Shown: piece by piece, positions 38,760-62,573 of the stretch
How positions within the stretch are numbered: the stretch's first letter is position 1
Layout: every line of letters starts with the position of its first letter
Origin: Pseudomonas sp. B6002
Lineage (GTDB): Bacteria; Pseudomonadota; Gammaproteobacteria; Pseudomonadales; Pseudomonadaceae
DNA: 64,000 bases
Direction: 5' to 3'
Assembly: GCF_013385985.1 (NCBI RefSeq)
Contig: NZ_JACAOY010000004.1
Location: 426 to 64,425, forward strand
Translations under genes and position numbers: made by a program
Notes under the pieces: model-generated
The model's input: the letters and a program-made list of their open reading frames with translations, nothing else
What the model was told of the DNA's origin: nothing
Databases searched by the model: none

Positions 38760-39260
38760 CTAATGCGCGACGGCCTGCACATATGCCTGGCAGGCACGCA
38801 GGGCGATCAGCGCACTGTCGCCGTCGTCGGTGATGGCGAGAATTCGTTGAGCATGCGCCGGGTCAAGTTGGGCTCGCGGGGCTGCATGAACCACGCCGCC
38901 GGCGGGGGTGGCGGCTGGCACTGCGCAACCACGGGAGGTGTCGGCGGTGTCGAGAAGGACTGACAACCGCACATCAGCAGTGGCCAGGCGGTCACGCAGA
39001 GCCGCCTGATGACGTTGGGCATCGTTCAATTCCTGGGCATGTTGTTGGTCGCTGGCACTGAGCTGTTGCTCCAGCGCCAGCCGTTTTTCCTGCTGTATCT
39101 GTTGCTGGTGCAGGGCAGACGCAGATTGCTGACTAAGCGCCTGCACCTGTGCAGCCGCTTGCTGCTCAAGCTGCGCGCCATAACGCCAGGCCTGGATTTG
39201 CCACACAACGGCCATCAGCAGGCAAACGCCGACCACGCGACAACCGACTAGGAAACGCAT
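38760..39260 (-). CDS. i-spanin (Rz/LysB-like)
   Basis: A 166-aa inner-membrane spanin. One N-terminal membrane helix (residues 3-22) precedes a long Gln/Ala-rich coiled coil (residues 30-95). It would join the o-spanin to disrupt the outer membrane at lysis. It overlaps the endolysin end by 13 nt and contains the Rz1-type gene in another frame. It is the last gene of the tailocin unit. Confidence 0.85.
   Translation of the reverse strand: MRFLVGCRVVGVCLLMAVVWQIQAWRYGAQLEQQAAAQVQALSQQSASALHQQQIQQEKRLALEQQLSASDQQHAQELNDAQRHQAALRDRLATADVRLSVLLDTADTSRGCAVPAATPAGGVVHAAPRAQLDPAHAQRILAITDDGDSALIALRACQAYVQAVAH
38807..39022 (-). CDS. o-spanin lipoprotein (Rz1-like), nested inside Rz
   Basis: A 71-aa reading frame wholly inside the i-spanin gene in another frame. 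The signal peptide ends in a lipobox (LLMCGC, lipidated Cys20 likely), and the mature peptide is proline-rich (STPPTPPVVAQCQPPPPPAAW). That architecture is diagnostic of Rz1/LysC outer-membrane spanins. Internal nesting is the classic lambda-like arrangement. Confidence 0.85.
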   Translation of the reverse strand: MPNVIRRLCVTAWPLLMCGCQSFSTPPTPPVVAQCQPPPPPAAWFMQPREPNLTRRMLNEFSPSPTTATVR

Positions 39261-39799
39261 AGCACCGCCTTCGCCCGCGCCCACCGTTGCAGGCGATCCT
39301 CCAAGCCATTGAGCCCGCCATTGATCCGCCGCGTGATCGTGGTGAACTGGTCCTTGTCGGCCAATTCATTCAAGCCGTTGCTTTGCCAGAACCAGGCGGC
39401 GGACTCGCAGGCCCATTGCGGTTGCTCCAGCAGCTCGGGCTGTCGCAGCAAGCGATCATCACCGAACAACGCCTGGCTGCACGCCAGGTAATTACGCCGA
39501 CCGGTAATCTGTATCAGCCCCCTGCCCCGGTACAGCTGGCCATCGCCGTCGGCTTGCGGGGTATTACCCAGACGTATGGCCAAGGTGCCGGTGTCGTATT
39601 TGCTCAGGTATTGATCACTGCCCAGCTCACGCACATAGCGCAACTCGCCGGACTCGTGGCCGATTTGGGCGAGGAAGGCGGCGATGCGTTTGGGGGTAGT
39701 GATTTGATAGTGGGCAATGGCCGCGTTCAGGGCAGATATGAAAACGCCGGCTCGTGGGCCGGCGTTAAGCAATATTGCCTGGAGTTGCGAGATCTGCAT
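39248..39799 (-). CDS. Endolysin, glycoside hydrolase family 19-like
   Basis: A 183-aa muralytic enzyme. The catalytic region shows FLAQIGHESGELRYVREL (general acid Glu) and YRGRGLIQITGRRNYLACSQAL. It lacks a signal peptide, so it needs the holin encoded 22 kb upstream at 61761-62105. This is the only endolysin seen in the tailocin locus. A strong GC hairpin lies in its first codons. Confidence 0.9.
   Translation of the reverse strand: MQISQLQAILLNAGPRAGVFISALNAAIAHYQITTPKRIAAFLAQIGHESGELRYVRELGSDQYLSKYDTGTLAIRLGNTPQADGDGQLYRGRGLIQITGRRNYLACSQALFGDDRLLRQPELLEQPQWACESAAWFWQSNGLNELADKDQFTTITRRINGGLNGLEDRLQRWARAKAVLCVS
39743..39766 (-). other. GC-rich hairpin inside the endolysin 5' coding region
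   Basis: A perfect 9-bp stem AACGCCGGC / GCCGGCGTT with a 6-nt loop. On the transcribed strand it is followed by TTTTC. It begins 33 nt into the endolysin gene. It could attenuate lysis-gene expression. Confidence 0.5.
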
Positions 39800-39817
39800 G
39801 AGGAGCTCCTTCAGGCA

Positions 39818-40195
39818 CTATTTAACTTGCAGTGCAATCCAACCCGGAGCCGCTGGGCGCTTGTCCATTGATGGGAACTCTGCCGCTTGGGGCCAATCTC
39901 GAAGCTGTTGCAAATAGACAAGCAACTCAGAAAACTGTGCGTCGTTCAACTTCGTGTTGAGAGCCATATCGGCCTCATCGCGGTGGCGCTCGCGAAGCCA
40001 CTTTACACTTTCAATCTGAACGTCACGCCATTCACGCTCCAATCTCTGGGGGTCAGGCCCATCCAGGGGCAAAGGAATACCACCCTGCGACAACCATTCT
40101 TCGTATTCAGACCAGTAGCGATGAGCACGCGGGACAGTTGCTTTATCTAGCAAACGTAAAACAGTATCGGGATCGTGTGTCAGTTGATAGCTCAT
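39818..40195 (-). CDS. Tail fibre assembly chaperone, Mu-type cluster
   Basis: A 125-aa protein directly after the tail fibre gene, in the position of Mu gpU. It is charged and tryptophan-rich (RYWSEYEEWLSQGG, LERERHRDEAD-type helix, QLRDWPQAAEFPSMDKRP). The C-terminal pattern fits phage tail-assembly chaperones. Identity rests mostly on position. Confidence 0.7.
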   Translation of the reverse strand: MSYQLTHDPDTVLRLLDKATVPRAHRYWSEYEEWLSQGGIPLPLDGPDPQRLEREWRDVQIESVKWLRERHRDEADMALNTKLNDAQFSELLVYLQQLRDWPQAAEFPSMDKRPAAPGWIALQVK

Positions 40196-40203
40196 AAAAC
40201 CTC

Positions 40204-41418
40204 CTAAAGTTCGGCATCAGCCGTTGCATGGATATAGTAGGTCTGCACAGTAAGCGCAGTATCCGAGTTATCAACCCAAAGCCCGCGGGTAGACGTGGTT
40301 AGTGTTCGAGCACTGACCGATGAATACTGATCGCTGCCTGAACGCCATTGCCCTATGGGACCATTATTGTTGACGCGATAAAGTGTGACGCTCGGAATAG
40401 CGCGCTTTTCAACTTTAAAAGGCCAGTGAGCTAACGGCTGAGCCGTATAAGCAGCCTGACCTTGTTTCACTGTGGAAATAAGAGACCCTACGTAAGTGTT
40501 GGCTGAGTCACTCGGTATCACATCATAATTAAACGTTTTCTCATAAAATCGTTGGCACAAAATCAACTCTTCTGCGATTGGACGCCGCTCAAAGATTGTG
40601 GCAGCAGGTCCTTCTTCCAACTGAATCTGTGCTAAATCGATAGTCTGCAGAGTATTAAGCGGTAGATCGATTTCAATCCGCAAACAGTCATTGTCTGCGG
40701 TGCCTAATGTTTTTCCAGCGATGGACGGAATCTGAAATGTTGCCTGACACCGTGACCAGCCGCTCGTTAACAGAAACGAGTTGATCAACGTAGTAACAGG
40801 GGCAGAACCACCACTGCCGAAGTTCTGCGTGATAGAACAAGATACACGGCGTGTTGCATCCCCACGTGCCCAAAAGGAAATCGTCGCAACTTTGCCAGCT
40901 AACGACCTTACCGACTCGATTTTTTGTGACACTTTATGGATTGTTGATCCGGCCCCAGTCGAGACCTGCTGCCAACGAAAGAAGAACCGCGGCTCATTCG
41001 GCACATCAGTCTGGCCGAGTGCAAAGCTCTGCCGGGAAATATTCACTCCCGCGGCACCATCCCAATCAGAGCGAAATCGATCGGCAAGAAAACCACCGAC
41101 GGAAGGGCTTACATTGACACCCCCCCTTTGCCATATATCAAACCCGCCATTGATGACTAAGTTCTTGCGATACACCTGAGCAGGAAAACTCTGCTGCGGA
41201 TCGAGCTTGGCCAGCTCTTTAATCGCCTGGGTGAGCTGATTATTCTGAGATTCATTTGGCACCATCCCAGCGGCAGTAATCGCATTGATTATTTCCTGCG
41301 TCACCCCATTCCCCCAACTCGCCGGCACCAGGCTTCCTGGCGTCCCGGTCACGGGGTTCTCGTCCACAAACTTGCCATTTACCAGCCCAACGCTGGGCAC
41401 ACTTTTTGGGTAATCCAC
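40204..41418 (-). CDS. Tail fibre (receptor-binding), Mu-type cluster
   Basis: A 404-aa fibre. The N-terminal 75 residues (PKSVPSVGLVNGKFVDENP, WGNGVTQEIINAITAAG) form the conserved virion-attachment part. From residue 85 a different, lower-GC region begins (NLVINGGFDIWQRGGV) that resembles carbohydrate-binding modules of other fibres. The composition change near 41150 suggests swapping of the receptor-binding end. It would set the killing spectrum. Confidence 0.82.
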   Translation of the reverse strand: MDYPKSVPSVGLVNGKFVDENPVTGTPGSLVPASWGNGVTQEIINAITAAGMVPNESQNNQLTQAIKELAKLDPQQSFPAQVYRKNLVINGGFDIWQRGGVNVSPSVGGFLADRFRSDWDGAAGVNISRQSFALGQTDVPNEPRFFFRWQQVSTGAGSTIHKVSQKIESVRSLAGKVATISFWARGDATRRVSCSITQNFGSGGSAPVTTLINSFLLTSGWSRCQATFQIPSIAGKTLGTADNDCLRIEIDLPLNTLQTIDLAQIQLEEGPAATIFERRPIAEELILCQRFYEKTFNYDVIPSDSANTYVGSLISTVKQGQAAYTAQPLAHWPFKVEKRAIPSVTLYRVNNNGPIGQWRSGSDQYSSVSARTLTTSTRGLWVDNSDTALTVQTYYIHATADAEL

Positions 41419-41429
41419 TGTTTTATCCC

Positions 41430-42029
41430 CTAGTCATAATTAATGTTCACCTGCGTGTGTGCAGGTGCGCTGCGATGGATCAGGCATTCCAGGGCACTGC
41501 CCGGGTCGGCGCCGAAGCGTTCGCCCCAATAGCTCGCGCCGAACCGACGGCCCAGGTGTTGTCGCCCGCCCGTGTTAAGGGTCCACATGAAGTGAGCGCG
41601 CCAGGTGCCGAAGCACGCGGCGCCAAAGCGGGCGTGGCCCATGCGCGGTGCGCGCAGTTCGGTGACGCTGGCGTCGGGGTAGCCCTGACTGCGGGCGATG
41701 TCGATGTAGTACGCGGCACGCTGGTTGCCCACGGCCAGCAAGCGTCGACGTACTGCCAGGCGTCGGTCGTCGTAGAGCGGGCTGAGGCCCAGGCACGGGT
41801 CAGGCAGTTGCATCACCTGTTCCCATTCGGGCACCAGTTCGCTGACGTTGGCCGGGTCCATTTCGTTTTGCAGGGCCCAGGCACGGGCGTCGACGCGGGC
41901 CAACTCCTCGGCAAGCCCGCTGAGCACCTGGCCCAGTTGCGGCACCGTCTCCAGGTCCCAGGCCGGGCCGCTGGGCAGCAGGTCGACCAGTTGCTGCCGA
42001 TACTGTTCCGCCGTTCTCATCCCACCCAT
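41430..42029 (-). CDS. Baseplate protein, Mu gp48-like (DUF2313)
   Basis: A 199-aa baseplate component (RTAEQYRQQLVDLLPSGPAWDLE, MDPANVSELVPEWEQVMQLPD). GGAGG lies 6 nt before the ATG at 42029, which favours that start. An ATG at 42020 would make a 4-nt overlap with the gp47 stop. It links the baseplate wedge to the fibre in Mu-like tails. Confidence 0.85.
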   Translation of the reverse strand: MGGMRTAEQYRQQLVDLLPSGPAWDLETVPQLGQVLSGLAEELARVDARAWALQNEMDPANVSELVPEWEQVMQLPDPCLGLSPLYDDRRLAVRRRLLAVGNQRAAYYIDIARSQGYPDASVTELRAPRMGHARFGAACFGTWRAHFMWTLNTGGRQHLGRRFGASYWGERFGADPGSALECLIHRSAPAHTQVNINYD

Positions 42030-43057
42030 GTGATACCTCCAAACACCAGCAGTTGGTTATTGGCAGCGGTCACATCCGCCACGGGGCTCGCCAGTCGATG
42101 ATCGGTCTCGCCGGTCGCGCTGCTGATGGCTTCTGCGATGTGGCTGAGCAACAGGGTGTCGCCCAACCCCGCCTCGCGGCTGTGCAGGTCGCGCAACTGG
42201 GCTTCCACCGCCGCGCGCACCGCCGTCGTGTCCGGGGTCAGCCGCAGTTGGTAGCTCACCGGTTTCATCACCGGCGCCAGCACATACACATCTGCCGTCA
42301 CCGGGCGCAGGGGTTCGATATGGGCCTGTACCGCTGCCAGTTGGGCTGCATTGGGGATGGGCTGCGCATCGTCATCACGCATCACGAAGACACCTACCGT
42401 GCCCGGTCCCAAATAATTGCCTTGGCACCAGGCTCGGGTGACGCCGGGCACTTCCAGCGCCCAGGTCTCGTAGTCCTGGGCCGAGCCCCCTTGGGGAATC
42501 ACGCGGTAGGAACGAATCACCCGAGTGCGCAGCGCCTCCAGGCTTTCCCGTGCAACACCGCCGGTCAGCCCCGGCGCCAGCACGGTGAAGGTCGAGCCAA
42601 TGCCTTGCAGCGGCTGCACCGCCACCAGGTTCAACCCGGCGTCAGCGTTGCCAAGAAGGCCCGCGTCCACCGCCTGCACGGTGGTGGTGTTGAGCCCGGC
42701 CTGGGTCGTCACCGCAGCCGTCACGACGTAACCGCGCCCGTCGCTGGCTTGCAATACGCGGCCCACGTCCAGCACCGCACCGGCCGCGGCGGTAAAGCTC
42801 ACGCTGCCGCTGGCGGCCGTCGCAGCCTTGCGTGGCTGGCTCAAACGCAGTACGGCCATGCGCTCCAGGGTCGCTTCGTCGGCGGTGTCCGGCAGGATCT
42901 GCTCGGCGATCCAATCGAGGTAGCCATACAGGCCAAACGCGGCACCGCTGAGGGTGCGCGCCAACACCTGGGCATCGGACTGGCGCAGCGAATCGCTGGC
43001 CAGGTCGCTTTGGGTGCGGTTGATCAGCACCGGCAGCGAAGGGGTTTCAAAGGGCAT
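42017..43057 (-). CDS. Baseplate J-like wedge protein, Mu gp47-like
   Basis: A 346-aa baseplate wedge protein with the family pattern SLPVLINRTQSDLASDSL and ARESLEALRTRVIRSYRVIPQGGSAQDYETWALEVPGV. It overlaps gp46 by 11 nt and gp48 by 13 nt. Confidence 0.9.
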   Translation of the reverse strand: MPFETPSLPVLINRTQSDLASDSLRQSDAQVLARTLSGAAFGLYGYLDWIAEQILPDTADEATLERMAVLRLSQPRKAATAASGSVSFTAAAGAVLDVGRVLQASDGRGYVVTAAVTTQAGLNTTTVQAVDAGLLGNADAGLNLVAVQPLQGIGSTFTVLAPGLTGGVARESLEALRTRVIRSYRVIPQGGSAQDYETWALEVPGVTRAWCQGNYLGPGTVGVFVMRDDDAQPIPNAAQLAAVQAHIEPLRPVTADVYVLAPVMKPVSYQLRLTPDTTAVRAAVEAQLRDLHSREAGLGDTLLLSHIAEAISSATGETDHRLASPVADVTAANNQLLVFGGITWVG

Positions 43058-43448
43058 AGATCACCTGCCAACTGTTATCAGGGTTGATGTCCAGGCGCTC
43101 GCCGTCGGCCAGGGTCAATTGCGTGCGCAGGTTGAGGCGCTGGGCGTCGATGCGTTCGCTGAGGACCTCAATGGCGCGGCAATGACCGTCGTCGATCAGC
43201 CATTGCAGCGCCTCGCGGGCATAGAATTCAGCATCCAGACGGGTTTGGCGGGTCAACTTGACCCGCCTGAGCAACCACAGCCTGGAGCCAATGCGGTCAT
43301 CGGCCACACTGGGGAAACTGTCGCCCCACCAGCCGAAGCGTTCGTCGTCTTCAACCGGGTCATCGGGTGCCGCACGGCGCCAGGTGAACAGGCTGATCAG
43401 CACCGCCCGGGTCAGGGCATTTTTCAAGGTGTCGGATACAAACATCAC
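43047..43448 (-). CDS. Baseplate protein, Mu gp46-like
   Basis: A 133-aa baseplate wedge component (LKNALTRAVLISLFTWRRAAPDD, GWWGDSFP, SRLWLLRRVKLT). The GWWGD motif is typical of gp46. It overlaps both neighbours. Confidence 0.88.
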   Translation of the reverse strand: MMFVSDTLKNALTRAVLISLFTWRRAAPDDPVEDDERFGWWGDSFPSVADDRIGSRLWLLRRVKLTRQTRLDAEFYAREALQWLIDDGHCRAIEVLSERIDAQRLNLRTQLTLADGERLDINPDNSWQVIYAL

Positions 43449-43954
43449 GGCCCTCCTACCGGCGCACCGGTCTGGCCGTTGCCGGGTTGCACGCCGGGAT
43501 GCAGGTGCTGGATCTGGCTGATACCGCCCGCCACCTGGTCGCCCTTGGAAACGATCTGCCCACTCTGGGTCAGCGTCGGCGTATCAATGTTCACCGCCGT
43601 GCTCGCGCGGATATTCAAAGTGCCGGTCTCAATGTCGATCACCCGCCCACGCTTGAAGTGAATGCGATCACCTTCGTCGGTGTAGATCGCCACTTCGCCC
43701 GCGGCCAGCGACTGCAAGCGATAGCGACGGTCGGCCACCACCAGCACCACCGCATGGGAGCGATCCCCCCCGAGAAAGGTGGCGATTCCCTCGGCACCTG
43801 CCAGCGGGTTGCTGGTGAAACCGTAGGGTTCGAAATGCTCCATGTCGTCATTCACTTCGCCTGCGGTCAGGCGCATCTGCAGGGTTTGCAGCTTGGAAGC
43901 CGACTGGGCGAGCACGACGGTGCCGCGCGCCAGCAGGCGTGTCAGTAGGCTCAT
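43445..43954 (-). CDS. Baseplate spike, Mu gp45-like (gpV family)
   Basis: A 169-aa central spike protein that would pierce the outer membrane. The N-terminal OB-like part (LQMRLTAGEVNDDMEHFEPYGFTSNPLAG) is followed by a beta-helical C-terminal region (GDRIHFKRGRVIDIETGTLNIRAS). It ends in a proline/glycine tail. Confidence 0.88.
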   Translation of the reverse strand: MSLLTRLLARGTVVLAQSASKLQTLQMRLTAGEVNDDMEHFEPYGFTSNPLAGAEGIATFLGGDRSHAVVLVVADRRYRLQSLAAGEVAIYTDEGDRIHFKRGRVIDIETGTLNIRASTAVNIDTPTLTQSGQIVSKGDQVAGGISQIQHLHPGVQPGNGQTGAPVGGP

Positions 43955-43970
43955 ACAGGTTCCTTGAAGG

Positions 43971-45008
43971 TCAGGCAGGTGGCGCCGGGTTGGCGTCGAA
44001 GGTGGAAGGCGGCGCCACCTGCAGGGTGGTGATCGAGCCGCTGTCGGACAGCGAGTAAGTGACCTTTGAAATCAGCAGGTCCCTGTCGAACCCCAGCACC
44101 GGATCGATCACGCGCACCAGTCGGTTGTGTCGCCAGAGTTCCCCGTTGGATTGGCGCCAGCCCTGCACCCGATAGGTGGTGGTCAGGGCTTTTCCGGTCC
44201 GCGTGGCACGCTCCCAGTTCGCACGTTGCTGGGCCATTTCCGGGGTGATCTGCGTGGCTTCGCTGATGACCGTGATGCGTTTGCGCGCGGCCTTGTCGTC
44301 CACCGAAACGCCATACACTTCGCTGATCGCCGCCGCACTTTTCTGGTCGTCACCCTTGTGCTGACCAATCACCCGGTATTCGGAAAACACACCGCCAAAG
44401 TCCCGGGGCGCATCGGCCGAGAGAATATTCTTGCCCAGCGCCAATGCGTCACTGGCGCGTCCGCCGCTGCCCGGTTGCGCCAGCACCAGGCGGCCTTGTT
44501 CGTCATCGGTGGAGAACAGCCGGTACAACGTCAGCAAGCGATCAATAGACTGAAACACCGTCTCACCGGGCACCACGCTGTGGGTATGCAGGCGTGGGGT
44601 TTCAGGGATTTCGCTGCGCACCTCGATGCCATAAGGCGCGGCCAGGGCGCGAACAATGCTCGGCAAGGTTTGCCCGCGCCATTGGCCGGGCGTGTTGATG
44701 GCCGCGCAATCGACCAGGTCCTGGGTCAGCGAACTGCCCTCAAGGGCCAGGCTGATGCTGTTGCCGTCGTAGGTGACCGGCGCCTTGAACACATAACCGC
44801 TCAGCACCAGGTCACAGCCGATGCGCACCTGGCAACGTGCGCCAGGCTGGATCGGCACCTCCAGGGTTTGCCCCGGCCATTGCCAGGTGATGCTCAGGTT
44901 GAAGGTGCGGAACTGGCGCTCCAGGTCCGCGGTGATTTCCACGCTTTTCCAGCCACCGTACTCCAGGCCGTCAACGGTCAAGGTGACGGCATTGTCCAGG
45001 TCATTCAT
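43971..45008 (-). CDS. Tail hub / baseplate protein, Mu gpP-like (gp44)
   Basis: A 345-aa hub protein equivalent to P2 gpD. It shows VTLTVDGLEYGGWKSVEITADLERQFRTFNLS and DFGGVFSEYRVIGQHKGDDQ. GGGAG sits just before the ATG, overlapping the upstream stop region. It sits between gpN-like and gp45-like genes as in Mu. Confidence 0.9.
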   Translation of the reverse strand: MNDLDNAVTLTVDGLEYGGWKSVEITADLERQFRTFNLSITWQWPGQTLEVPIQPGARCQVRIGCDLVLSGYVFKAPVTYDGNSISLALEGSSLTQDLVDCAAINTPGQWRGQTLPSIVRALAAPYGIEVRSEIPETPRLHTHSVVPGETVFQSIDRLLTLYRLFSTDDEQGRLVLAQPGSGGRASDALALGKNILSADAPRDFGGVFSEYRVIGQHKGDDQKSAAAISEVYGVSVDDKAARKRITVISEATQITPEMAQQRANWERATRTGKALTTTYRVQGWRQSNGELWRHNRLVRVIDPVLGFDRDLLISKVTYSLSDSGSITTLQVAPPSTFDANPAPPA

Positions 45009-45011
45009 GGC

Positions 45012-46250
45012 TTACTCCCGAACCACTTGCAGGTCCGCCGGTGGTAGGAACCCCGGGTGAGCCACCCGGTTGCGCTGCACCACTTCACCCACGCGGGTGG
45101 CATCGCCGAAGCGCTGATACGCCAGCACCAAAGCCGGCATGCTGCGCATCGGCGTGAGATTGACCAGGCGCACACCGGACGATGCCACCGCGTTGAGGTG
45201 GGCAAACAGTTGCTGGCGCAGGTCATTGAGCGCCACGTAATGCCCGGCATCGGCCTTGAGCGCGGCGTGCCACAGGGCTTCGTTGAGTTGATCACGCAGC
45301 GCCAGCACATCGTCGGCCACCGGTACTTCGCGACGTTGCACCGGCTGCGTCGCCTGTTGCGCCAGTGTCGGCGTGGTGGTGAGGGTGACGGCCTTGGTTG
45401 CGACCGGGGTGTCCGCCAGCCAATGGGCTATTTGCACCCAGAGCGCGTCCTGCACCAGGTTGGCCGTCGCTTGCACGGCGGCAACACTGTCCTTGCCGGT
45501 GGTCAGTTTCGGCGCATCAATGCGCCGCGCTGCCTCCACCTGCTGCGAAACGTTGGCCAGCATGCCGCGATAGCCACTGCGGGCAAACTCGCCCAGTTCC
45601 TTCACATCGCCGAGCAGGCCCTTGAACTCGGCACTCAGTTCCCGAGGCAGTTCCTTGATGCCTTTGACCAGCGCATTCACATCCCCGTACAACTCGATCA
45701 GCGGCGCGAATTGATGCTCGATCACCTGGTAGACATCGGCCAAGCCATTGCGCAGCGCTTGTATGCCGACACGCGCCTGCTGAACAAGCGCCGTCGCCTG
45801 CTCAAAACGCAGCATGGCTGAACCCAACAGGCTGTCGGCCGACACCAGCAATTGCTGGCGGGTATTCACGGCAGCGGTGGGAAACTTGAGGGGCGCGTCG
45901 GGGTAGAACTTCAGTGCAAACGTCACCAGCCCGCCATCCTGTCGGGTCTGGGTCATCTCGCACTCGCCCACCTTGACCTGCAAGCGTCCCAGCCACGGGT
46001 GTACCAGTTCACCCGCGCCTTCTTCCAGCGCCTTGAGCAGCTTGTCGCGCTGCTCCAGGCAATCCTCACCCACCACAAACGCGGTCAGTTCATGCACCCG
46101 CGACTGCTGCCCCAGGCGCTCGAAAAACGGTTCGTCGCGCTGGGGGTATTCGTGCAACTGGCCCTTCTTGCCGACCGGGGTTTTCGCCTGGTCGACCCAA
46201 AACCCGACGCCGCGAAACGACGCCGGCAACAAACGATCACGCCAGCTCAT
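45012..46250 (-). CDS. DNA circularisation / tail protein, Mu gpN-like (gp43)
   Basis: A 412-aa protein with the N-terminal DNA-circularisation-type domain (WRDRLLPASFRGVGFWVDQAK, GQLHEYPQRDEPFFERLGQQ). The rest is helical. In a tailocin, which carries no DNA, its role is structural in the baseplate and tail. The start at 46250 overlaps the tape measure stop by 14 nt. Confidence 0.9.
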   Translation of the reverse strand: MSWRDRLLPASFRGVGFWVDQAKTPVGKKGQLHEYPQRDEPFFERLGQQSRVHELTAFVVGEDCLEQRDKLLKALEEGAGELVHPWLGRLQVKVGECEMTQTRQDGGLVTFALKFYPDAPLKFPTAAVNTRQQLLVSADSLLGSAMLRFEQATALVQQARVGIQALRNGLADVYQVIEHQFAPLIELYGDVNALVKGIKELPRELSAEFKGLLGDVKELGEFARSGYRGMLANVSQQVEAARRIDAPKLTTGKDSVAAVQATANLVQDALWVQIAHWLADTPVATKAVTLTTTPTLAQQATQPVQRREVPVADDVLALRDQLNEALWHAALKADAGHYVALNDLRQQLFAHLNAVASSGVRLVNLTPMRSMPALVLAYQRFGDATRVGEVVQRNRVAHPGFLPPADLQVVRE

Positions 46251-53453: not shown

Positions 53454-53459
53454 ACCGCT

Positions 53460-54211: not shown

Positions 54212-54308
54212 GTCAATGTGGGAGCCGGGCTTGCCCGCGAAGGCATCACCGCGGTGTAGCAGGTAAACCGAGTCGCCTGTATCGCAGGCAAGCCAGCTCC
54301 CACATTGA
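54212..54308. repeat. REPIN inside the tailocin operon
   Basis: Inverted REP pair with matching outer ends (GTCAATGTGGGAGCC ... GCTCCCACATTGAC). It occupies the 181-nt gap between the tube and chaperone genes of the R-type cluster. All other junctions in this cluster are tight. Confidence 0.92.
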
Positions 54309-54335
54309 CCGTGCCCACCTCAGATCGCGGGGTCT

Positions 54336-54842
54336 TTAAGGCATGAGTACGGCGCGGCGGGCGTCGCCGAGAATGTCGACGCCGTTGAGTACAAACTTCT
54401 GGGTGCGCACGTCGATGTCGATCACCGAGATGCCATTTTCCAGGCGGTTGTAGGTGCGGCAGGACAGCTCCAGGGTGGTGGTGGGCTTGGCGTTCATCGT
54501 CAACGCTGTCTCGGTCAACGATTTGAGCTTGCCGCCGACGGTGTGGTAGGTGAAGTAGGTCTTGCCGTCCTGGTCCTGGCCGGCTTCCCGCACGTTCAAC
54601 AGAATGTCGTCACCGAGGCGCACGCCCAGGGCCAGCATGATTTCCGGACCGACACCTTGCAGGGCCAACGTGGCGGTCAAGGGCTTGCCGCTCTTGGCCA
54701 TTTCTTCGGCGATGAAGCGGCCACCGGTCATGGCCTCCATCTCGAACTCGACCTTGGGCGGCGTGAAGGAATCCACCGTCGCGGACAACGGCAGGCCTTG
54801 CAGGGTGGCCGCAATGGCCTGTCTTACACGGTTGGTAAACAT
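54336..54842 (-). CDS. Tail tube protein, P2 FII-like
   Basis: A 168-aa tube subunit (FTNRVRQAIAATLQGLPLSATVDSFTPPKVEFEMEAM, LELSCRTYNRLENGISVIDIDVRTQKFVLNG). Its length is that expected of R-pyocin tube protein. The ATG shares an A with the sheath stop. Confidence 0.93.
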   Translation of the reverse strand: MFTNRVRQAIAATLQGLPLSATVDSFTPPKVEFEMEAMTGGRFIAEEMAKSGKPLTATLALQGVGPEIMLALGVRLGDDILLNVREAGQDQDGKTYFTYHTVGGKLKSLTETALTMNAKPTTTLELSCRTYNRLENGISVIDIDVRTQKFVLNGVDILGDARRAVLMP

Positions 54843-56008: not shown

Positions 56009-56010
56009 GA

Positions 56011-56202
56011 TTAGTCAGCCTTCTTGGTGGTGGCCTTTTTGGCCGGGGTGGCGTTGAGGACGCTGGTGAGTTCCAAGCGGCCAGCGGTGCGCAGGGCGGA
56101 TGCTTCGACGTCCAGCAGCTCCAGCTCCTGGCCGACGGTGGACCAATGGCCGGCGCCGATAGGGAATGGGGTTAGGACGGTGTAGGTTTGGCGGGTGGGC
56201 AT
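56011..56202 (-). CDS. Small tail-associated protein upstream of the sheath
   Basis: A 63-aa protein (YTVLTPFPIGAGHWSTVGQELELLDVEASALRTAG) with a Lys/Ala tail (AKKATTKKAD). GGAG lies 9 nt before the ATG. It is 2 nt from the sheath gene, the same position as the DUF2635 protein in the Mu-type cluster. Function unknown. Confidence 0.72.
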   Translation of the reverse strand: MPTRQTYTVLTPFPIGAGHWSTVGQELELLDVEASALRTAGRLELTSVLNATPAKKATTKKAD

Positions 56203-56220
56203 AAGTAGGATCTCCAGGCG

Positions 56221-56243
56221 AAAAAAAACCGCTCAAGGCGGTT
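56221..56243 (-). terminator. Terminator-like hairpin after the fibre chaperone gene
   Basis: Stem AACCGC (56227-56232) / GCGGTT (56238-56243) followed on the transcribed strand by a run of T (the stem extends into an A8 tract on the plus strand). It lies between the fibre chaperone and the sheath block, within the operon. Confidence 0.7.
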
Positions 56244-56259
56244 GGGATGGTTGGTGTTT

Positions 56260-56649
56260 TTAGGCCGGAGGCGCAGGCCATTCGATTTCCATGGGGTAGC
56301 CAACTTGAGCTGAGACTCGGCTAATATCCACACGGTATTTTTTCCATTTTCTAAGCTGTTCAATCTCTGCTGGCAAGGCCTCGTCAAGATCTTCGGCATC
56401 TTGCAATGGAGCAATTTTGGTCGTCGCTACTGCAAGCAAGACGTCTGCTTTTGCGGCTGCTTGCGCTAGGAGCTCCTCCTGTGTCTTTTGCTGCACGTCT
56501 AAACGAGGCTTTCCATCTGAATCAACAGTAATTACACCGCCTTCAGATTGGCCATTGATCAAAACCCAATAGCTTTCATCAGTGAGCGCTACAGCGCCTT
56601 CAAATGTTTGCAAATAGAACCCTGATGTTCGCGGATCAAAGTAATACAT
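56260..56649 (-). CDS. Tail fibre assembly chaperone, R-type cluster
   Basis: A 129-aa protein. The start YYFDPRTSGFYLQTFEG and the C-terminal KYRVDISRVSAQVGYPMEIEWPAPP are typical of Caudovirales tail-fibre assembly proteins. It lies 9 nt after the fibre gene and has lower GC than its neighbours. It probably co-evolves with the fibre tip. Confidence 0.87.
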   Translation of the reverse strand: MYYFDPRTSGFYLQTFEGAVALTDESYWVLINGQSEGGVITVDSDGKPRLDVQQKTQEELLAQAAAKADVLLAVATTKIAPLQDAEDLDEALPAEIEQLRKWKKYRVDISRVSAQVGYPMEIEWPAPPA

Positions 56650-56658
56650 AGAAAACCC

Positions 56659-58659
56659 TCAGTAACCGAATGCCAACCACCTAACAGGGACACCATTTAC
56701 CGTCCCCGTTCGAATTTTGAATTGTGCGTTCGATACAACAACGCCCATCGTCATATACTCCGTGCTACCGCCTCCCGAGTTGCCATCAACGTTAACGGTT
56801 GCGCCCAGATAAGCGCAGTTCGTAGCGAATGCTATAGGGAAGCTCAATGTTGCAGTCGACGAATTGATACTGCCCCATTGAATGGTCAAGCCACCTAGCC
56901 AAGAAGGGAATATGAGGTAACCGTTTGCGGTTAGAGAAGCAGCAAAGCCGAAGCGTAACTTTTTCGGGCTAACAAAAACTGAGTCGCTGGCGCCATCATT
57001 CACTTGGCCTTGCGTACCCACTTTCGCAGTGCCTTGGTTACTCTCGGTTGCCTGCGATGCGAGCGCAGCCAGAGCCGCGATATCAATATTTCCCTGATTT
57101 ACTGGTGAGTTCCAGGCCTTGATGCACCACATGACGGCCAGGTTTCGAGGACGTGTAACCCCAAAATTATTACCTTCGGCCGCCATCGTGCCGCCGCTAC
57201 CGCTAATGCCACCATACGCAGCACCTGGGTAATCCCCCGCGCTACCGATATCCAACCCGTATGCAGCACGAGCGTTCGATTCCGGCGTTACGGTCGCGTT
57301 GTACAGCCCCGTGATAGTGACGGTTGTGATCGTCGAATCTATCGTCTGAAGGCTACCCTTCTGTGCGCTCCCAAGCTCCCGTCCGGCATCCACTCCGCGA
57401 CCATGGTCCCAACCACGCAAGAACTCTCCACGCGACTCAGGCAATCGGAAGTACCCGGCAGGTTCGCCCCCCGTGTTGAACGTAGTACCGAGGTATGCCG
57501 CCAGATCGGGGTAGGTCGCAATGCTCTTTACACTGCCGTCCAACTCCAGGTAGCCGGGCGGTACGGCAGTTTTGGGGAATGGAACGATCGAGCCGACGGG
57601 AACGGCGGATTTCAACGTATCGAGTTCACTGACAAGTGCGGCGACATCGATGCTTCCCTGATTGATCGGAGCGTTCCAAGCCTTGATGCAGTACATCACG
57701 GCAATACTGCGCGGGCGTGTTTCACTCGCGATACGGGGATCGCCGTTCACGCCATCATTAATAGGGGTGACAACTGTAGGGCCAAGAACCGTATCACCTA
57801 CTTTGTTTGATACGAATGGCCCGTTCGACGTTTCACTGATAACGCCCGCTCTACCACGCAATTCATGACCATGACCTTGAAAAGAGTCCGCGCGCCAACT
57901 ACCGATGCCACGGCCTAGGTCAACGCCCCGCCCATGATCCCACCCACGCAAAAACTCCCCACGCGACTCCGGCAGTCGGAAATTCCCAACCCCCTCATCG
58001 CCCTTATTGAACGCAGTCCCCAGGAACTTCGCCAAATCCGGGTACGCCGCAGCGCTCTTCACACTGCCGTCAATTTCCAGGAACCCAACCGGTACCTTAT
58101 CCACCGGAAACGCCACCATCGAACCCACGGGCAGCGCCGAAGATTGAGCAATCAGCGCCTCAATCTCAGCCTTCGAATACGTCCCCTGCTTCAGGTAATC
58201 CATCACCCAAGCCCGAGTCGCTTTTACCACCGTGTCATCAATCAACAACGTGACAATCGAGGCATTGCTCGTCTCGAAAATCGAGCGGATATAAAACTCC
58301 TTACCCGACCCGGACGTAGCCAGCACCGGCTTGTACGACTCCGGATATTTCACGATGGCGTACAGAATCCCGGTGTCGGTCCACAGCCCGGCCTCTCGCA
58401 CGTACCAGCCACCAACATCCGAAGGAATGGTGACTTCGGCCATCAGCCAGTTGGCGTTTTTTTCATCTTGAAACAGCGCATTCAACGGCCCGCGCCAGAC
58501 TTCGCGTTTCAGCGCTTTTGCGTTGGCATCCGGGTTGTAGACGGCGCCGTTGCCGTCGCCGACGGAGATCTGCGCCAGTTTGATCGGCACGCCCGCCGCC
58601 TTGCAGGCGGTTTCGTAGGCGATCCCCGCATTCGTGAGCAGGGTGTAATAGTCAGCCAT
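56659..58659 (-). CDS. Tail fibre (receptor-binding), R-type cluster
   Basis: A 666-aa fibre. Residues 1-150 form the attachment domain (ADYYTLLTNAGIAYETACKAAG). Two collar-type modules follow in tandem (about 175-340 and 352-525), sharing NFRLPESRGEFLRGWDHGRGVD / YFRLPESRGEFLRGWDHGRGVD and TRPRSIAVMYCIKAWN / TRPRNLAVMWCIKAWN. The C-terminal 90 residues (NGYLIFPSWLGGLTIQWGS ... GVPVRWLAFGY) match the gp53-like fibre tip. The tip region is poorer in GC. It sets target specificity. Confidence 0.9.
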   Translation of the reverse strand: MADYYTLLTNAGIAYETACKAAGVPIKLAQISVGDGNGAVYNPDANAKALKREVWRGPLNALFQDEKNANWLMAEVTIPSDVGGWYVREAGLWTDTGILYAIVKYPESYKPVLATSGSGKEFYIRSIFETSNASIVTLLIDDTVVKATRAWVMDYLKQGTYSKAEIEALIAQSSALPVGSMVAFPVDKVPVGFLEIDGSVKSAAAYPDLAKFLGTAFNKGDEGVGNFRLPESRGEFLRGWDHGRGVDLGRGIGSWRADSFQGHGHELRGRAGVISETSNGPFVSNKVGDTVLGPTVVTPINDGVNGDPRIASETRPRSIAVMYCIKAWNAPINQGSIDVAALVSELDTLKSAVPVGSIVPFPKTAVPPGYLELDGSVKSIATYPDLAAYLGTTFNTGGEPAGYFRLPESRGEFLRGWDHGRGVDAGRELGSAQKGSLQTIDSTITTVTITGLYNATVTPESNARAAYGLDIGSAGDYPGAAYGGISGSGGTMAAEGNNFGVTRPRNLAVMWCIKAWNSPVNQGNIDIAALAALASQATESNQGTAKVGTQGQVNDGASDSVFVSPKKLRFGFAASLTANGYLIFPSWLGGLTIQWGSINSSTATLSFPIAFATNCAYLGATVNVDGNSGGGSTEYMTMGVVVSNAQFKIRTGTVNGVPVRWLAFGY

Positions 58660-59289
58660 TTAGTGCTCCTGTGGATAAAGGGTGGTGGTTTCGACGGTGT
58701 ACAGCCCGGCCGCCATAAAAGCGCGGCCCGTGGCCTCGACTCCTGCCAGCACGTTGGGGTAGATCGTGGTCAGTTCGCCGCACAACGTGGCGGCGCCGAT
58801 GAAGTGACGGCCCGAAGCACTCAGGCCTACGGAGATCGACAAAATGTCGCGCTCGCTCTTGGCGTCAGCCAGGCGGCGATCGAGTCGGGCGTCGATGATT
58901 TCGCTGTAGGGCAATTCGGTGTAGGCCCGTACGGAAAAGCTGTAGGGCACGCCAGGCGGTGTTTGTTCGTACCAGGCACGCACCTCTGGGGTGAGTTGCA
59001 GACCTTTGGCCGCGTTTTCCAAAGCCTGTCGCGTGCCAGCCTGGCGAGCAGTGGGCCAGGCGAGTTTGACGGTCAGGCGTTTCTCGGCCTCGGGGGCCGT
59101 GGAACTCCATTCGTTCACCGCGCGGTCTGCCGCCAGGTAAGGCAAAAACGACGCCGGTGTGCGATCCGGGTCCATCAATTGCGGGAACGGTGGAGTCACC
59201 CGCTCCAGCAACTGGCCAAAGCCCAGATCCAGCGCCTTTTCCAGCGGTGAGCTGTTGGCGGGCAACAGGCTCGCTTTGGGTTCACTCAT
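58660..59289 (-). CDS. Baseplate protein, P2 gpI-like
   Basis: A 209-aa baseplate wedge protein (LLPANSSPLEKALDLGFGQLLERVTPPFPQLMDPDRTP, FLPYLAADRAVNEWSSTAPEAEKR). The start at 59289 gives a 4-nt ATGA overlap with the gpJ stop. It connects baseplate to fibre. Confidence 0.92.
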   Translation of the reverse strand: MSEPKASLLPANSSPLEKALDLGFGQLLERVTPPFPQLMDPDRTPASFLPYLAADRAVNEWSSTAPEAEKRLTVKLAWPTARQAGTRQALENAAKGLQLTPEVRAWYEQTPPGVPYSFSVRAYTELPYSEIIDARLDRRLADAKSERDILSISVGLSASGRHFIGAATLCGELTTIYPNVLAGVEATGRAFMAAGLYTVETTTLYPQEH

Positions 59290-60281
59290 AGCGTGCGCAC
59301 CTCCACCTCGACGCCCGTGCAATACGGGGCCTGGAACGCGCTGCTGATGATCGGTTCCAGAGGCTCGAGAATCTGCAACTGGGCGGCGCCGGCACTGTGG
59401 ATGGCGTAGTCGATCCAGCTTGGATCGACGCGACCTTCCAGGCGGTGGCAGGAATCGGCGTAGGTTTGCAGCAGTTTTTGCGCCGCGACTTGGGTCAATC
59501 CCGAATCGGGGCCGGCGTTGATCTTGGCCACCACGCGAATTTTGTAGCGCTGGATCTGCGCGCCCTGGACGGTCACTCGATCAGTTTCCGGTCGCACATC
59601 GGGCCGCGCGAAATGTCGACGCACACCGTCAAGCAAATCGGCAGAGGCCGTGCCATCGCCATCCCGTGAAAGCACGGTGACCATCACCTCGCCGGGGGCG
59701 GTGCGCCGGCCATTGCCGTCCTTGACCTGTGCCGCATAACCATCCGGGTCGAAGGTGTAGCTGACGGTGACCACGCCTGGTGTAGCGCTTTGCACCTTCA
59801 CCGACGGCCGTTCACCGAGGGTGAAGACTTCGCGGCGATACTGCATCCGCGAGCCCGCTGCCGGCGCATGGGGCGCCAGGTAATAACGCAGGCGGGCGTC
59901 ATCATCGCTTTCCAGAATCGGCGGCACCGGCGGGAATGCAGCCGGGTCGCCGGGGTCGAGTACCTGGCGCTCCAGGCCCATGTCGGCCAGGCGGGCATCC
60001 AGGTTGCTACCAGTGGCCCACCACGCCAGCATCTGCTTGATGCGGGCGTTGTATTTGCGTTCATGGGTTTGCAGGCGCACGCAAAAGGCTTCCAGGGCCA
60101 GGGTCAGCAGCTCACTTTCGTTGTCGAGGCTGACCTTGAGTTTGGCCGCGCTTTGCGGCGCACGGGTGGCGACGTAATCGACGACGAAGGCTTTGAACTC
60201 GGCCAATAGAGGTTCGAACTCATCGACAGCGATGATCGCCGGTTCTGCCAGTTGGTTCTGGCCAGGGATCAGCATGCTCAT
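59286..60281 (-). CDS. Baseplate wedge protein, P2 gpJ-like
   Basis: A 331-aa wedge protein (AEPAIIAVDEFEPLLAEFKAFVVDYVATRAP, NARIKQMLAWWATGSNLDARLADMGLERQ, DDARLRYYLAPHAPAAGSRMQYRREVF). The ATG overlaps the gpW stop by 4 nt. Confidence 0.93.
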   Translation of the reverse strand: MSMLIPGQNQLAEPAIIAVDEFEPLLAEFKAFVVDYVATRAPQSAAKLKVSLDNESELLTLALEAFCVRLQTHERKYNARIKQMLAWWATGSNLDARLADMGLERQVLDPGDPAAFPPVPPILESDDDARLRYYLAPHAPAAGSRMQYRREVFTLGERPSVKVQSATPGVVTVSYTFDPDGYAAQVKDGNGRRTAPGEVMVTVLSRDGDGTASADLLDGVRRHFARPDVRPETDRVTVQGAQIQRYKIRVVAKINAGPDSGLTQVAAQKLLQTYADSCHRLEGRVDPSWIDYAIHSAGAAQLQILEPLEPIISSAFQAPYCTGVEVEVRTL

Positions 60282-60610
60282 GTGACAACCTCGAAGGATT
60301 GTTGGCGGTTTTTCCAGGTGCCGGCAAAACGCAGCAACAAACCTGCGCCCTGGCGGGTGGCGACAATGACCTGGGGTTGAAAATCAGCAATGCCGTTCTG
60401 GGTGTTGTAAAACGCTTGAGCCGCGTGGCTCTGGGCGAGAAGCAGCAAATCGTCGCCCAGGTTCTGGCCGAGCAGTTGGGGGATGAGCGAGCCGTACAAC
60501 GGCCGCTTCTGACGCGTGCCCACAGGGGTGGTCAGCGCTCGGGTGGCACGCTGCACAAATTGCAGCCAGTCATCGACGGCTGCCCCGGTGTTCCTATCGA
60601 TTCCGATCAT
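60278..60610 (-). CDS. Baseplate protein, P2 gpW-like (gp25 family)
   Basis: A 110-aa gp25-like wedge protein (IGIDRNTGAAVDDWLQFVQRATRALTTPVGTRQKRPLYGS). The TTP.GTR...PxYG pattern is diagnostic of the family. It lies between gpV and gpJ as in P2. Confidence 0.93.
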   Translation of the reverse strand: MIGIDRNTGAAVDDWLQFVQRATRALTTPVGTRQKRPLYGSLIPQLLGQNLGDDLLLLAQSHAAQAFYNTQNGIADFQPQVIVATRQGAGLLLRFAGTWKNRQQSFEVVT

Positions 60611-60619
60611 GGCAAATCC

Positions 60620-61231
60620 TTATGCGCTGCTGATCACTCGGCCTTGGTGATCCACCACCGGGCCGCTCAAATGCACGCCGGCCGCATCCAGCAACACGCC
60701 GCTGGCGCCGAGTTGCAGGGTGATGCTCTGGGCCGTCATCGTCAGGCTGGCGGCACCGACCTTGACCTCGACCTGTTCGCGGGAGCCGCTGAACGTGGTA
60801 GGGCCGTTAATCCAATTGAAGGTGTGGCTGACGTCGTCGTAGTCGCTTTGGGTGCCGTCCTGATGGCGGCGACGTGTTAGCGAAGCAACACTCGATACAG
60901 GCGGAAACAGACTACTGTTGAGGCCGAACAAAGCCACGGACTGCGCGCCCCCTTCCCCGCTGCCATAGTTGAGCAACAGGCATTGCTCGCCGATTGACGG
61001 GATGCGGGTTTCGGTCTGTGCCCCCGCGCTGGGGTTGAAGAACCGGATGGCCGGGGTAAGCAACTCGCCGTGGCTGATCTTGCAGGTATTGCTGACAGCG
61101 TCCACTTCCTGGCACACACCGATGCGGCAGAAGCTTTCGGCGCGGCGGTAGAGGTCTTCGAGTTGGGCTTCCATTTCAGCCAGGCGCTCGACGATCGGCC
61201 CCAGTTGCATGCGTAGCAATGCATCGAACAT
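60620..61231 (-). CDS. Baseplate spike, P2 gpV-like
   Basis: A 203-aa spike protein. An N-terminal helical part (LGPIVERLAEMEAQLEDLYRRAESF) precedes an OB-fold (RIGVCQEVDAVSNTCKISHGELLTPAIRFFNPSAG, GEQCLLLNYGSGEGGAQSVALFGL) and a C-terminal beta-helix. It forms the membrane-piercing tip. Confidence 0.92.
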   Translation of the reverse strand: MFDALLRMQLGPIVERLAEMEAQLEDLYRRAESFCRIGVCQEVDAVSNTCKISHGELLTPAIRFFNPSAGAQTETRIPSIGEQCLLLNYGSGEGGAQSVALFGLNSSLFPPVSSVASLTRRRHQDGTQSDYDDVSHTFNWINGPTTFSGSREQVEVKVGAASLTMTAQSITLQLGASGVLLDAAGVHLSGPVVDHQGRVISSA

Positions 61232-61234
61232 GGA

Positions 61235-61738
61235 CTACTCCAGCAAGGGGCGATATTGGTCAGGGTCATCGATGTTCGAAACTTCCCACGTGCGGGCAAA
61301 CAGCGGTGTGCCGGTAGGATCTTCGAGCAGCGACGGGCCGAGGTAGAGGGTTTGGGTGAAGGACACGGTCCAGGTGTCGTAGTCCGTTTCTGCAATGGAT
61401 GAAGTCGACGGCGCCGCGACAATGTTGGTGGGCAAGTCGCATTGGTCTGGCGGCAGGCCCCAGCGATTATCCAGGGCCAGGTCCATCACTTGGCTGGCCA
61501 GATCGCAGGCGTCGAAAGGGGCTGAGCCGGCAGGTACATTGACCTTGAGCAAAACCGTGAGGGCATGAGCCTTGCGCCCGTCCATGGAGCGAAAACCAGG
61601 CCCATTGCGTTCAATGCTGATCAAGACGCCGGGGCCTTGAGCGTCCAGGTGTGTTCCCAAGCTCAGCTGTGGGAAAGCGTTCTTCAACGCCAGCCCAATG
61701 GCTTCGGGAAGCCGGGAAGGTTTTTCAATAAGTGTCAT
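61235..61738 (-). CDS. PA0615-like tailocin protein
   Basis: A 167-aa protein between the holin and gpV genes, the position of PA0615 in the R2-pyocin cluster (from memory). It resembles phage gp37-type or tail-completion proteins (LPEAIGLALKNAFPQLSLGTHLDAQGPGVLISIE, WTVSFTQTLYLGPSLLEDPTG). The start at 61738 was chosen as the first ATG before recognisable protein. Confidence 0.8.
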   Translation of the reverse strand: MTLIEKPSRLPEAIGLALKNAFPQLSLGTHLDAQGPGVLISIERNGPGFRSMDGRKAHALTVLLKVNVPAGSAPFDACDLASQVMDLALDNRWGLPPDQCDLPTNIVAAPSTSSIAETDYDTWTVSFTQTLYLGPSLLEDPTGTPLFARTWEVSNIDDPDQYRPLLE

Positions 61739-61760: not shown

Positions 61761-62105
61761 TTACGGCTGATCCGGGCGAGACGTCGGGGTCTCGTTGACC
61801 CCGATGCGCTTGGCCGCCCAGCGTTCATAAAGGCCGATGGCGACGTCCGCGCCGGCCATGGCGGTGAGGCAACCAATGGCACCCGCGGTCCAGATCGACA
61901 TGCCGGCGGCGTAGCACAGCATCAACGCCGAAACCCCGCAGACCATGCACGCCCCGGACCGCAGGGCCAGGCGCCGTATTAGCGACCAGCCACGGGCGCC
62001 CTCTTTGTCGGCGCGCCACATTTCGCCGGACACCCCGCCGATCAGGGCCAGTGCGATCACCAGCCAGATCGGCATTTCCGCTAACGCTTGCTGCTCGTTT
62101 GTCAT
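61761..62105 (-). CDS. Holin, R-pyocin type
   Basis: A 114-aa membrane protein (TNEQQALAEMPIWLVIALALIGGVSGEMWRADKEGARGW, then CMVCGVSALMLCYAAGMSIWTAGAIGCLTAMAGADVAIG). It has about three membrane helices and closely resembles the P. aeruginosa pyocin holin PA0614 from memory. AGGAGG lies 6 nt before the ATG. It is the first structural-operon gene and the only holin seen; its partner endolysin is 22 kb downstream. Confidence 0.92.
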   Translation of the reverse strand: MTNEQQALAEMPIWLVIALALIGGVSGEMWRADKEGARGWSLIRRLALRSGACMVCGVSALMLCYAAGMSIWTAGAIGCLTAMAGADVAIGLYERWAAKRIGVNETPTSRPDQP

Positions 62106-62178
62106 GTCACGCCTCCTGGCTGAGCACTGCCGGCAACGTGCCGGTTTCCTTGGTAAATCCATACAGTGGTAGGCATTC

Positions 62179-62204
62179 CAAAAAGCCCGGTCGCCCGGGC
62201 TTTT
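62179..62204 (-). terminator. Terminator-like hairpin in the tailocin leader
   Basis: AAAAAGCCCGG-TCG-CCCGGGCTTTT forms a strong hairpin with T-run on the transcribed strand. It lies about 330 nt downstream of the predicted promoter and 74 nt before the holin ATG, so transcription must pass it to reach the structural genes. Confidence 0.8.
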
Positions 62205-62368
62205 CAGTAATGATGTCCTCGGTCTTTCGGCGCTACTGGCGCGGTACGGACCTTTCCTCGATGTTTTTCCGACCACGATCCCTGTCTGCCGGATAACTGC
62301 TTCTGGTGCTTTACGCTGCACACCCGGGCCAGTTGCCAACCCTCTGAACCGTTATGAGGCCGGTTCAT
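62204..62368 (-). CDS. Possible small basic leader protein
   Basis: A 54-aa open frame (NRPHNGSEGWQLARVCSVKHQ ... GKVRTAPVAPKDRGHHY). Its stop falls at the edge of the leader terminator hairpin. It is strongly basic. The ribosome site is poor (AGG only). No family is recognised, and it may be non-coding. Confidence 0.3.
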   Translation of the reverse strand: MNRPHNGSEGWQLARVCSVKHQKQLSGRQGSWSEKHRGKVRTAPVAPKDRGHHY

Positions 62369-62397
62369 CGCTGCCTGTTCTTGAAGCGGTGGTGAAA

Positions 62398-62502
62398 CTA
62401 AAGAGCGTCGGCATCCTTGCCGGTGTTGCCTGGCATCCCTGCCATCGCTTCGATGGCGTCCATGCCGGTGTTGCATGCCTTCCTTGTCTTCCTTGGCAGC
62501 AT
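62398..62502 (-). CDS. Possible 34-aa leader peptide
   Basis: A short open frame (LPRKTRKACNTGMDAIEAMAG ...) with GGAGG 8 nt before the ATG, about 35 nt after the predicted transcription start. Too short for family assignment. It could be a translated leader peptide. Confidence 0.35.
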   Translation of the reverse strand: MLPRKTRKACNTGMDAIEAMAGMPGNTGKDADAL

Positions 62503-62519
62503 CCTTGCCGCCTCCACCA
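62411..62519. repeat. Short direct repeats in the tailocin leader
   Basis: TGCCGGTGTTGC occurs at 62418-62429 and 62463-62474 (45 nt apart). GCATCCTTGCC occurs at 62411-62421 and 62509-62519. Together they fill the low-complexity central leader. Confidence 0.55.
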
Positions 62520-62544
62520 GGCCTTATTGGCTGGCTTGAGATGA

Positions 62545-62573
62545 AGAATATGCATGTATGCATATACAGTCAA
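62545..62573 (-). promoter_or_regulatory. Predicted sigma70 promoter of the tailocin operon
   Basis: On the minus strand TTGACT (62573-62568), a 17-nt spacer and TATTCT (62550-62545) form a near-consensus promoter. Transcription would start near 62538 and run to the holin and tail genes. One palindromic operator lies in the spacer and another covers the -35. Confidence 0.75.
62549..62564. promoter_or_regulatory. Operator-like site A (promoter spacer)
   Basis: TATGCATGTATGCATA, a near-perfect 16-bp palindrome. It overlaps the spacer and first bases of the -10 of the predicted tailocin promoter. Consensus of the four sites: WATGCAnnWWTGCATW. Confidence 0.75.

Follow-up and report, generated by a model that had tools for sequence, protein, structure and literature searches.

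A structured leader RNA lies between the candidate promoter and the holin gene of a twin tailocin locus in Pseudomonas sp. B6002. The stretch that we analyzed, hereafter the window, is 64,000 nucleotides (nt) long and covers positions 426-64425 of contig 34 in a 6.68-Mb genome (G000:C34:426-64425). On its minus strand the locus runs in the order prtR, holin, P2-type R tail, Mu-type tail, GH19 endolysin and Rz/Rz1, with mutS and cinA as flanks. We are close to certain that the leader, whose core is about 110 nt long, is a real conserved RNA, and it apparently has gone undescribed so far. It is widespread behind tailocin promoters and also occurs in Pseudomonas phages, and it is the leader, not the twin tailocin, that is the new part of this locus. 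As an explanation of the whole, we lean modestly toward a twin locus transcribed as a unit from one promoter, in which a leader resembling the put antiterminators of HK022 would carry RNA polymerase as far as the endolysin.

Near-invariant blocks were seen in an alignment of 36 of the 54 leaders that precede holins. From 222 pattern matches in the fetched loci we took 53 representatives, on which RNAalifold placed 28 base pairs in four helices. In this alignment 99.3% of the cells are paired, compared with 24-51% in slid controls, and double changes occur at 15/28 pairs, a number reached by none of 500 shuffles (7.4 +/- 1.2). A set of 14 diverse copies, which includes five copies of 45-77 bits (three from two other genera) and whose alignment was fitted to the model, has double changes at 18/28 pairs (again 0/500 shuffles) and a covariation score of 0.588 versus 0.200. 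The P2 loop was initially folded with G-U pairs. With a pseudoknot between this loop (AACUG) and CAGUU behind P3, double changes are found at 17/30 pairs; two sequences with double changes support the pseudoknot and its last pair is broken in 3/53, so we regard it as probable. The leader of the window scores 118.5 bits in cmsearch, although the window is one of the training sequences, whose scores are high by construction.

Rfam 15 gave 19 weak matches in 61700-62750, none of them above the gathering cut-off and none overlapping 62266-62377. Our literature search, for which most subscription journals were outside coverage, found no description of such a leader among the matches listed, and such an RNA goes unmentioned in the accessible portions of PMC10305613, PMC12894663, PMC8545117 and PMC7204214.

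Using strict filters, we detected the element in 58/100 genomes of the genus, in 10/119 genomes of the family (3/19 genera) and in 1/274 genomes of the class, which was the genome of the window itself. It lies on the same strand and at most 2.3 kb upstream for 53 of the 59 holins at cinA loci. The exact core pattern is present in 41 of the 54 leaders within the 1.1 kb that we took. Of the 13 without it, 11 have a model match farther upstream (1.1-2.3 kb), and what separates this match from the holin looks by eye like coding sequence. Six leaders with such coding sequence before the holin (L067, L081, L051, L072, L047 and L074, from G062, G097, G034, G074, G029 and G084) look by eye as if they carried fibre assembly chaperone or fibre-type genes, and in some of them the distal hairpin P6 is repeated before the holin; these are possibly fibre cassettes inserted at P6.

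On viral contigs there are at least 182 copies, and a tailocin-type holin follows 109 of those listed, so many of these contigs are tailocins. Among the matches listed, 137 copies have at least 1.2 kb of upstream sequence, and in 110 of them a PrtR/cI-like repressor gene lies upstream on the same strand (76/76 with a tailocin-type holin, 34/61 of the others); in none of the 137 was a repressor found in any other position. The second copy in the genome of the window, on contig 48, is likewise on the same strand behind a PrtR-like repressor gene, and the stretches L090-L092 of contigs 48 and 8 gave no match to the leader model. The genes that follow the element in phages include RecT, RecE, SSB and sigma-like early genes, based on 52 proteins picked by length from 150 open reading frames at 27 loci, many of which have no assigned function. 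P. syringae-group plasmids carry the element as well (27 records), with regulators beside it in the two that were examined. In L342 (G056), what looks by eye like a VirB1-VirB2-VirB3 transfer operon follows the copy at 2314-2422 (minus), and in L339 a csrA-like first gene, also judged by eye, follows a divergent copy at 3972-4082 (minus). In phage DVM-2008 (L234, 2025-4436) a gene annotated as Com and a hypothetical gene stand between leader and holin, and behind the holin comes a colicin M-like bacteriocin gene.

Between 38100 and 64000 we found sigma70-like sites on the sense strand only at 62573-62545 and at 63475-63447, the latter in the 5' end of prtR. The former is about 440 nt from the holin, and exact palindromes of the pattern TGCATNNRTGCA were found in the scan only around it, at 62551-62616. 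They account for four rows (one palindrome was counted on both strands) against a chance mean of 0.5, and 1 of 100 shuffles reached four. They are putative PrtR operators. A scan for sigma70-type consensus sites and exact TGCATNNRTGCA palindromes found neither on the sense strand at the boundary of the two tail modules. The first-pass annotation had placed both tailocins in one transcription unit, and this is supported in that the unit has one promoter candidate on the sense strand, with the terminator-like hairpins inside the unit pointing the other way; the claim stands as supported, not proven.

In the mechanism that we propose, one PrtR-repressed and presumably SOS-opened promoter would drive the holin, the P2-type tail, the Mu-type tail, the endolysin and the spanins, and the lysis genes that frame the tails would release whichever particle is made. 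The leader RNA would work like put, as an antiterminator that acts in cis on RNA polymerase during elongation, so that transcription passes the hairpins at 56243, 50547 and 48221 and extends to the endolysin, about 23 kb farther downstream. The location of this structured RNA after a presumably repressor-controlled promoter, and the variety of the genes that follow it, are in keeping with an effect in cis on the transcription complex. Read-through is needed if there is a single transcript and if the internal hairpins terminate. We give this antiterminator role of the leader about even chances. The put RNAs of HK022, as described in the available part of PMC9378689, are located behind early promoters, work without a dedicated protein and are effective over at least 10 kb. 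What the leader apparently has in common with them, and with putL in its position, is that a structured RNA comes immediately after an early promoter under repressor control, on the same strand as a long operon. Terminator read-through by put-type RNAs goes through the zinc-binding domain of RNA polymerase and takes no added protein. We do not file the leader as a member of the put family because it fails the two-stem definition of put. It may be the first member found of a large, hitherto undescribed class of cis-acting antiterminator RNAs in mobile elements of the Pseudomonadaceae, each with a pseudoknotted core of about 110 nt and distal hairpins, that stand behind CI/PrtR-type promoters of phage early, tailocin and some plasmid or transfer operons and work over tens of kb without a dedicated protein, a broader proposal that we make tentatively and hold to be somewhat less likely than the role in this locus. 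A precedent of another kind is the EAR element of Bacillus exopolysaccharide operons, a structured leader-type RNA that causes antitermination over a very long operon; it resembles our leader in this respect and belongs to unrelated hosts.

Plant-associated pseudomonads, according to the text consulted of PMC10598620, have prtR for their tailocins and lack a gene for the activator PrtN, which raises the question of how 24 kb are expressed from one promoter, and on this the leader bears. If the proposed mechanism is true, the leader would join the few processive antiterminators known so far as a further class of RNA, and repressor plus leader RNA would be a control module common to phages and tailocins.

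Several observations weigh against antitermination by a put-like leader. The HK022 put RNAs, in the part of their description available, are about 70 nt long with two stem-loops, and the leader has a core of about 110 nt with four helices, a probable pseudoknot and further hairpins. Six of the 59 cinA-locus holins lack the element (two in G045 and one each in G051, G086, G021 and G014). Among the matches listed, no repressor was found with four queries at 27 of the 61 viral copies without a tailocin-type holin, and a divergent orientation is seen both for the annotated repressor-like gene of phage Orimi01 and for the regulator next to the plasmid copy of L238. Terminator-like sites are in no clear excess in the window, with 27 observed and 21.6 +/- 5.0 expected on both strands and, in a second scan, 8 compared with 10.9 +/- 3.7. 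Behind 49 phage-type copies, over 183 kb in total, sense terminators barely outnumber antisense ones (19 and 11), and the majority of the loci have none.

One alternative, which we consider unlikely, is that the leader is a regulated attenuator: in tailocins P6 (62204-62181) would truly terminate, and the RNA upstream of it would turn it on or off in response to a ligand, a Q-like factor or a protein of the host. In favour of this, P6 of tailocins usually reads AAAAGCC..GGCUUUU followed by U and stands ahead of the first gene, but its phage counterpart, AUGCGCC..GGGCGCAU, keeps the ACUG/UGG internal loop and lacks the U tract. For the same reason we rejected P6 as a plain terminator in spite of its resemblance to an intrinsic terminator in the window and in most tailocin copies. 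Our P6 finder matched 169/217 copies, a count that is biased because the finder demands pairing.

Equally unlikely, in our estimate, is that the target of the leader is not RNA polymerase and that it affects the message (its stability or translation) or works as a trans-acting small RNA. A stable 5' structure can protect mRNA, and a GGA-rich stretch at 62398-62530 (minus) has an RsmZ-like match with GGA repeats (E 0.014, 21.5 bits versus a cut-off of 44). This part, however, lies upstream of the element, is found in only some leaders and is absent from many of the 36 aligned, and the genes that come first behind the element vary, which makes a translation switch for a single gene unlikely. The Rfam matches to rsmX and RsmZ were both weak and below cut-off, and were set aside.

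That the two modules are separate units, with the hairpin at 50547 ending the R unit and a hidden promoter starting the Mu unit, we think improbable. The window does have this hairpin at the boundary, and a similar one occurs in G048 at 4393 of a 7100-base junction stretch. Against this, the boundary lacks a sense sigma70-like site or exact palindrome in the consensus scan described above, and in 12/16 other twin loci strict sense hairpins occur only near the Mu tube. There, shortly before the tube gene, the stricter scan found a near-identical hairpin, AGCCCAC..GTGGGCT with a T-rich tail (L094-L100, L102, L103 and L107-L109), which may set the ratio of sheath to tube. Across the 16 other twins there are 18 sense and 5 antisense terminator-like hairpins, a point in favour of the antiterminator reading.

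The first-pass annotation saw in the locus a novel mutual dependence of the two particles through a split lysis cassette, which we now regard as very improbable. In 100 genomes of the genus, the window's own among them, we located holin, cinA, endolysin and tubes of two families and took the gene order up to 75 kb upstream of cinA. This survey is blind to contig breaks and to endolysins unlike the query, its scope excludes F-type modules, and endolysin placement used 81 listed rows, with a left-out row for G002 (67 kb from cinA) added to the final count. In all 50 genomes that have a tube and both lysis genes near cinA, the holin comes before and the endolysin behind every tube, on the same strand; 46 of them show a single holin and a single endolysin (45 counting the distant endolysin of G002) and the rest have extra lysis genes. 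The orders at the 100 cinA loci were nothing (37), holin-R-Mu-lysin (13), holin-Mu-lysin (12), holin-R-lysin (10), holin-P2type-lysin (8), holin-P2type-Mu-lysin (3), holin only (4), holin-lysin with no tube found (3), two tandem frames (2), Mu tube only (2) and single odd cases (6). A frame with the holin first and the endolysin last thus encloses R alone in 10 genomes, another P2-type module alone in 8, Mu alone in 12 and two modules in 16, and the Mu module is second in 17/17 two-module frames, counting G010, where the endolysin was not detected. Holin and endolysin/spanins are a frame that takes one or two tail modules. Since the same split occurs in 30 single-module loci, it is not special to twins, and we rejected a novel split lysis cassette; mutual dependence of the particles is the default use of one frame. 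One holin, one endolysin and one spanin pair were indeed all that we found in the window, and the part of the earlier claim that holds is that twin tailocins come with one lysis set.

In G059 and G005 (L065 and L087), holin and endolysin stand only 3.1-3.6 kb ahead of cinA and no tube was found in between, apparently an empty lysis frame. Ten genomes have one TGA inside the endolysin match, nine with a P2-type tube (G007, G009, G024, G025, G065, G076, G077, G089 and G096) and one, G045, with a Mu tube; the alignment may run past the true stop.

The weakest alternative, that the conserved leader is a small gene, is hardly credible: an open frame crosses the leader in the window and Orf3 of DVM-2008 (annotated translational regulator Com) starts at 2025, inside the match 1903-2102, but the two extra bases in the P1 loop of the window, a 2-nt indel, together with compensatory helices and conserved loops are not those of a conserved reading frame.

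Twin tailocins with one lysis cassette are already known, and the window is a further example. According to the accessible text of a 2024 review (PMC12090994), P. chlororaphis has two R-tailocins with one shared lysis cassette, so lysis sharing is already in print. That cluster resembles ours in its two contractile tailocins of different ancestry with one lysis cassette, and the portion of the review describing it makes no mention of a leader RNA. By analogy with these published relatives (PMC12090994, in the same portion), one lysis set presumably serves both particles here. In P. protegens CHA0, as described in the available part of PMC7815802, the twins lie between mutS and cinA/recA, and tailocins #1 and #2 share with our locus the mutS-cinA site, a PrtR-like regulator, two tape genes, a holin and spanins. 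Two particle types were seen there by transmission electron microscopy, and two endolysins were reported there, compared with the one found here. We class the window locus with these twin R-tailocins of P. chlororaphis and CHA0, at the mutS-cinA site. In the R/F pyocins of P. aeruginosa, two particles share lysis genes under PrtR, with PrtN as activator and a flexible second particle. Our locus resembles these pyocins in PrtR and in lysis genes that are presumably shared; the pyocins differ in their flexible second particle, in PrtN and in their site. The P. aeruginosa locus sits at trpE-trpG (PMC10598620, accessible text).

Features of the tailocin locus and its leader, in window coordinates (a single number is the position given for that gene)
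Feature	Position	Strand	Basis or remark
mutS, 5' part, upstream flank	63639..63998	+	PF01624, E 2.8e-44
PrtR/CI-like repressor, helix-turn-helix and S24 peptidase	62705..63496	-	PF00717, PF01381; phrog_4
Palindromes TGCATNNRTGCA	62551-62562 (promoter spacer), 62574-62585 (directly upstream), 62605-62616		exact pattern
Promoter-like TTGACT-17-TATTCT	62573-62545	-	sigma70 consensus only
Structured leader RNA with P1-P4 and a probable pseudoknot of the P2 loop	62266..62377	-	cmsearch, covariation
P5 hairpin GGUC..GACC	62221..62252	-	compensatory variants by eye among tailocin copies
P6 distal hairpin CAUU-ACUG-AAAAGCCCGG..CCGGGCUUUU-UGG-AAUG	62172..62214 (core 62204-62181)	-	
Holin	61761..62105	-	PF16085, E 5e-53 (longer frame); phrog_785
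P2-type (R) tail module, first module	50571..61738	-	
P2-type set, first open reading frame	61235-61738	-	phrog_1072, no assigned function
P2-type V-like, W, J, I	60620, 60278, 59286, 58660	-	
P2-type fibre, fibre chaperone	56659, 56260	-	
Terminator-like hairpin with U8, after fibre chaperone	56227..56243	-	
P2-type sheath	54842	-	phrog_23; without Pfam match
P2-type tube	54336	-	PF04985
P2-type tail assembly chaperone (TAC), tape, U, D	53582, 52176, 51793, 50571	-	
Terminator-like hairpin at R/Mu module boundary	50527..50550 (site 50547)	-	
Mu-type tail module, second module	39818..50507	-	
Mu-type terminator protein, DUF2635	49923, 49747	-	PF23840 (terminator protein)
Mu-type sheath	48248	-	PF04984
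Terminator-like hairpin between Mu sheath and tube	48203..48221	-	looser scan
Mu-type tube	47836	-	PF10618
Mu-type TAC, tape, DNA_circ_N	47543, 46237, 45012	-	
Mu-type gp44-like hub, gp45, GP46, J, gp48	43971, 43445, 43047, 42017, 41430	-	
Mu-type fibre, fibre chaperone	40204, 39818	-	
GH19-type endolysin	39248..39799	-	PF00182, phrog_181
Rz spanin	38760..39260	-	PF03245, phrog_2466
Rz1-type frame nested in Rz	38807-39025 (stop to stop)	-	lipobox judged by eye
cinA, downstream flank	38178..38678	-	PF02464, E 8.9e-53

Gene assignments in the table come from Pfam and PHROGs families on the window proteins. They bear out the earlier description of two contractile tails that differ in ancestry, both of them complete with sheath, tube, tape, baseplate, fibre and fibre chaperone, and of one holin, one endolysin and one spanin pair. 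The endolysin is of the GH19 type, the spanin pair is Rz/Rz1, and the site is mutS-cinA with a PrtR-like regulator. Each TAC gene runs into a T6 slippery sequence followed by a second open frame, which fits the chaperone pair that had been proposed for each module. As also stated earlier, no terminase, integrase or capsid family was matched among the window proteins scanned, and the sole "head closure" label, from phrog_55, was assigned to the tube of the P2-type set. Elsewhere in the genome there are two more sheaths, on contigs 8 and 48, with 24-26% identity to the P2-type sheath of the window. Both adjoin strong PF04985 tubes, and the region on contig 48 also has its own holin and endolysin relatives; these regions are separate loci, probably prophages.

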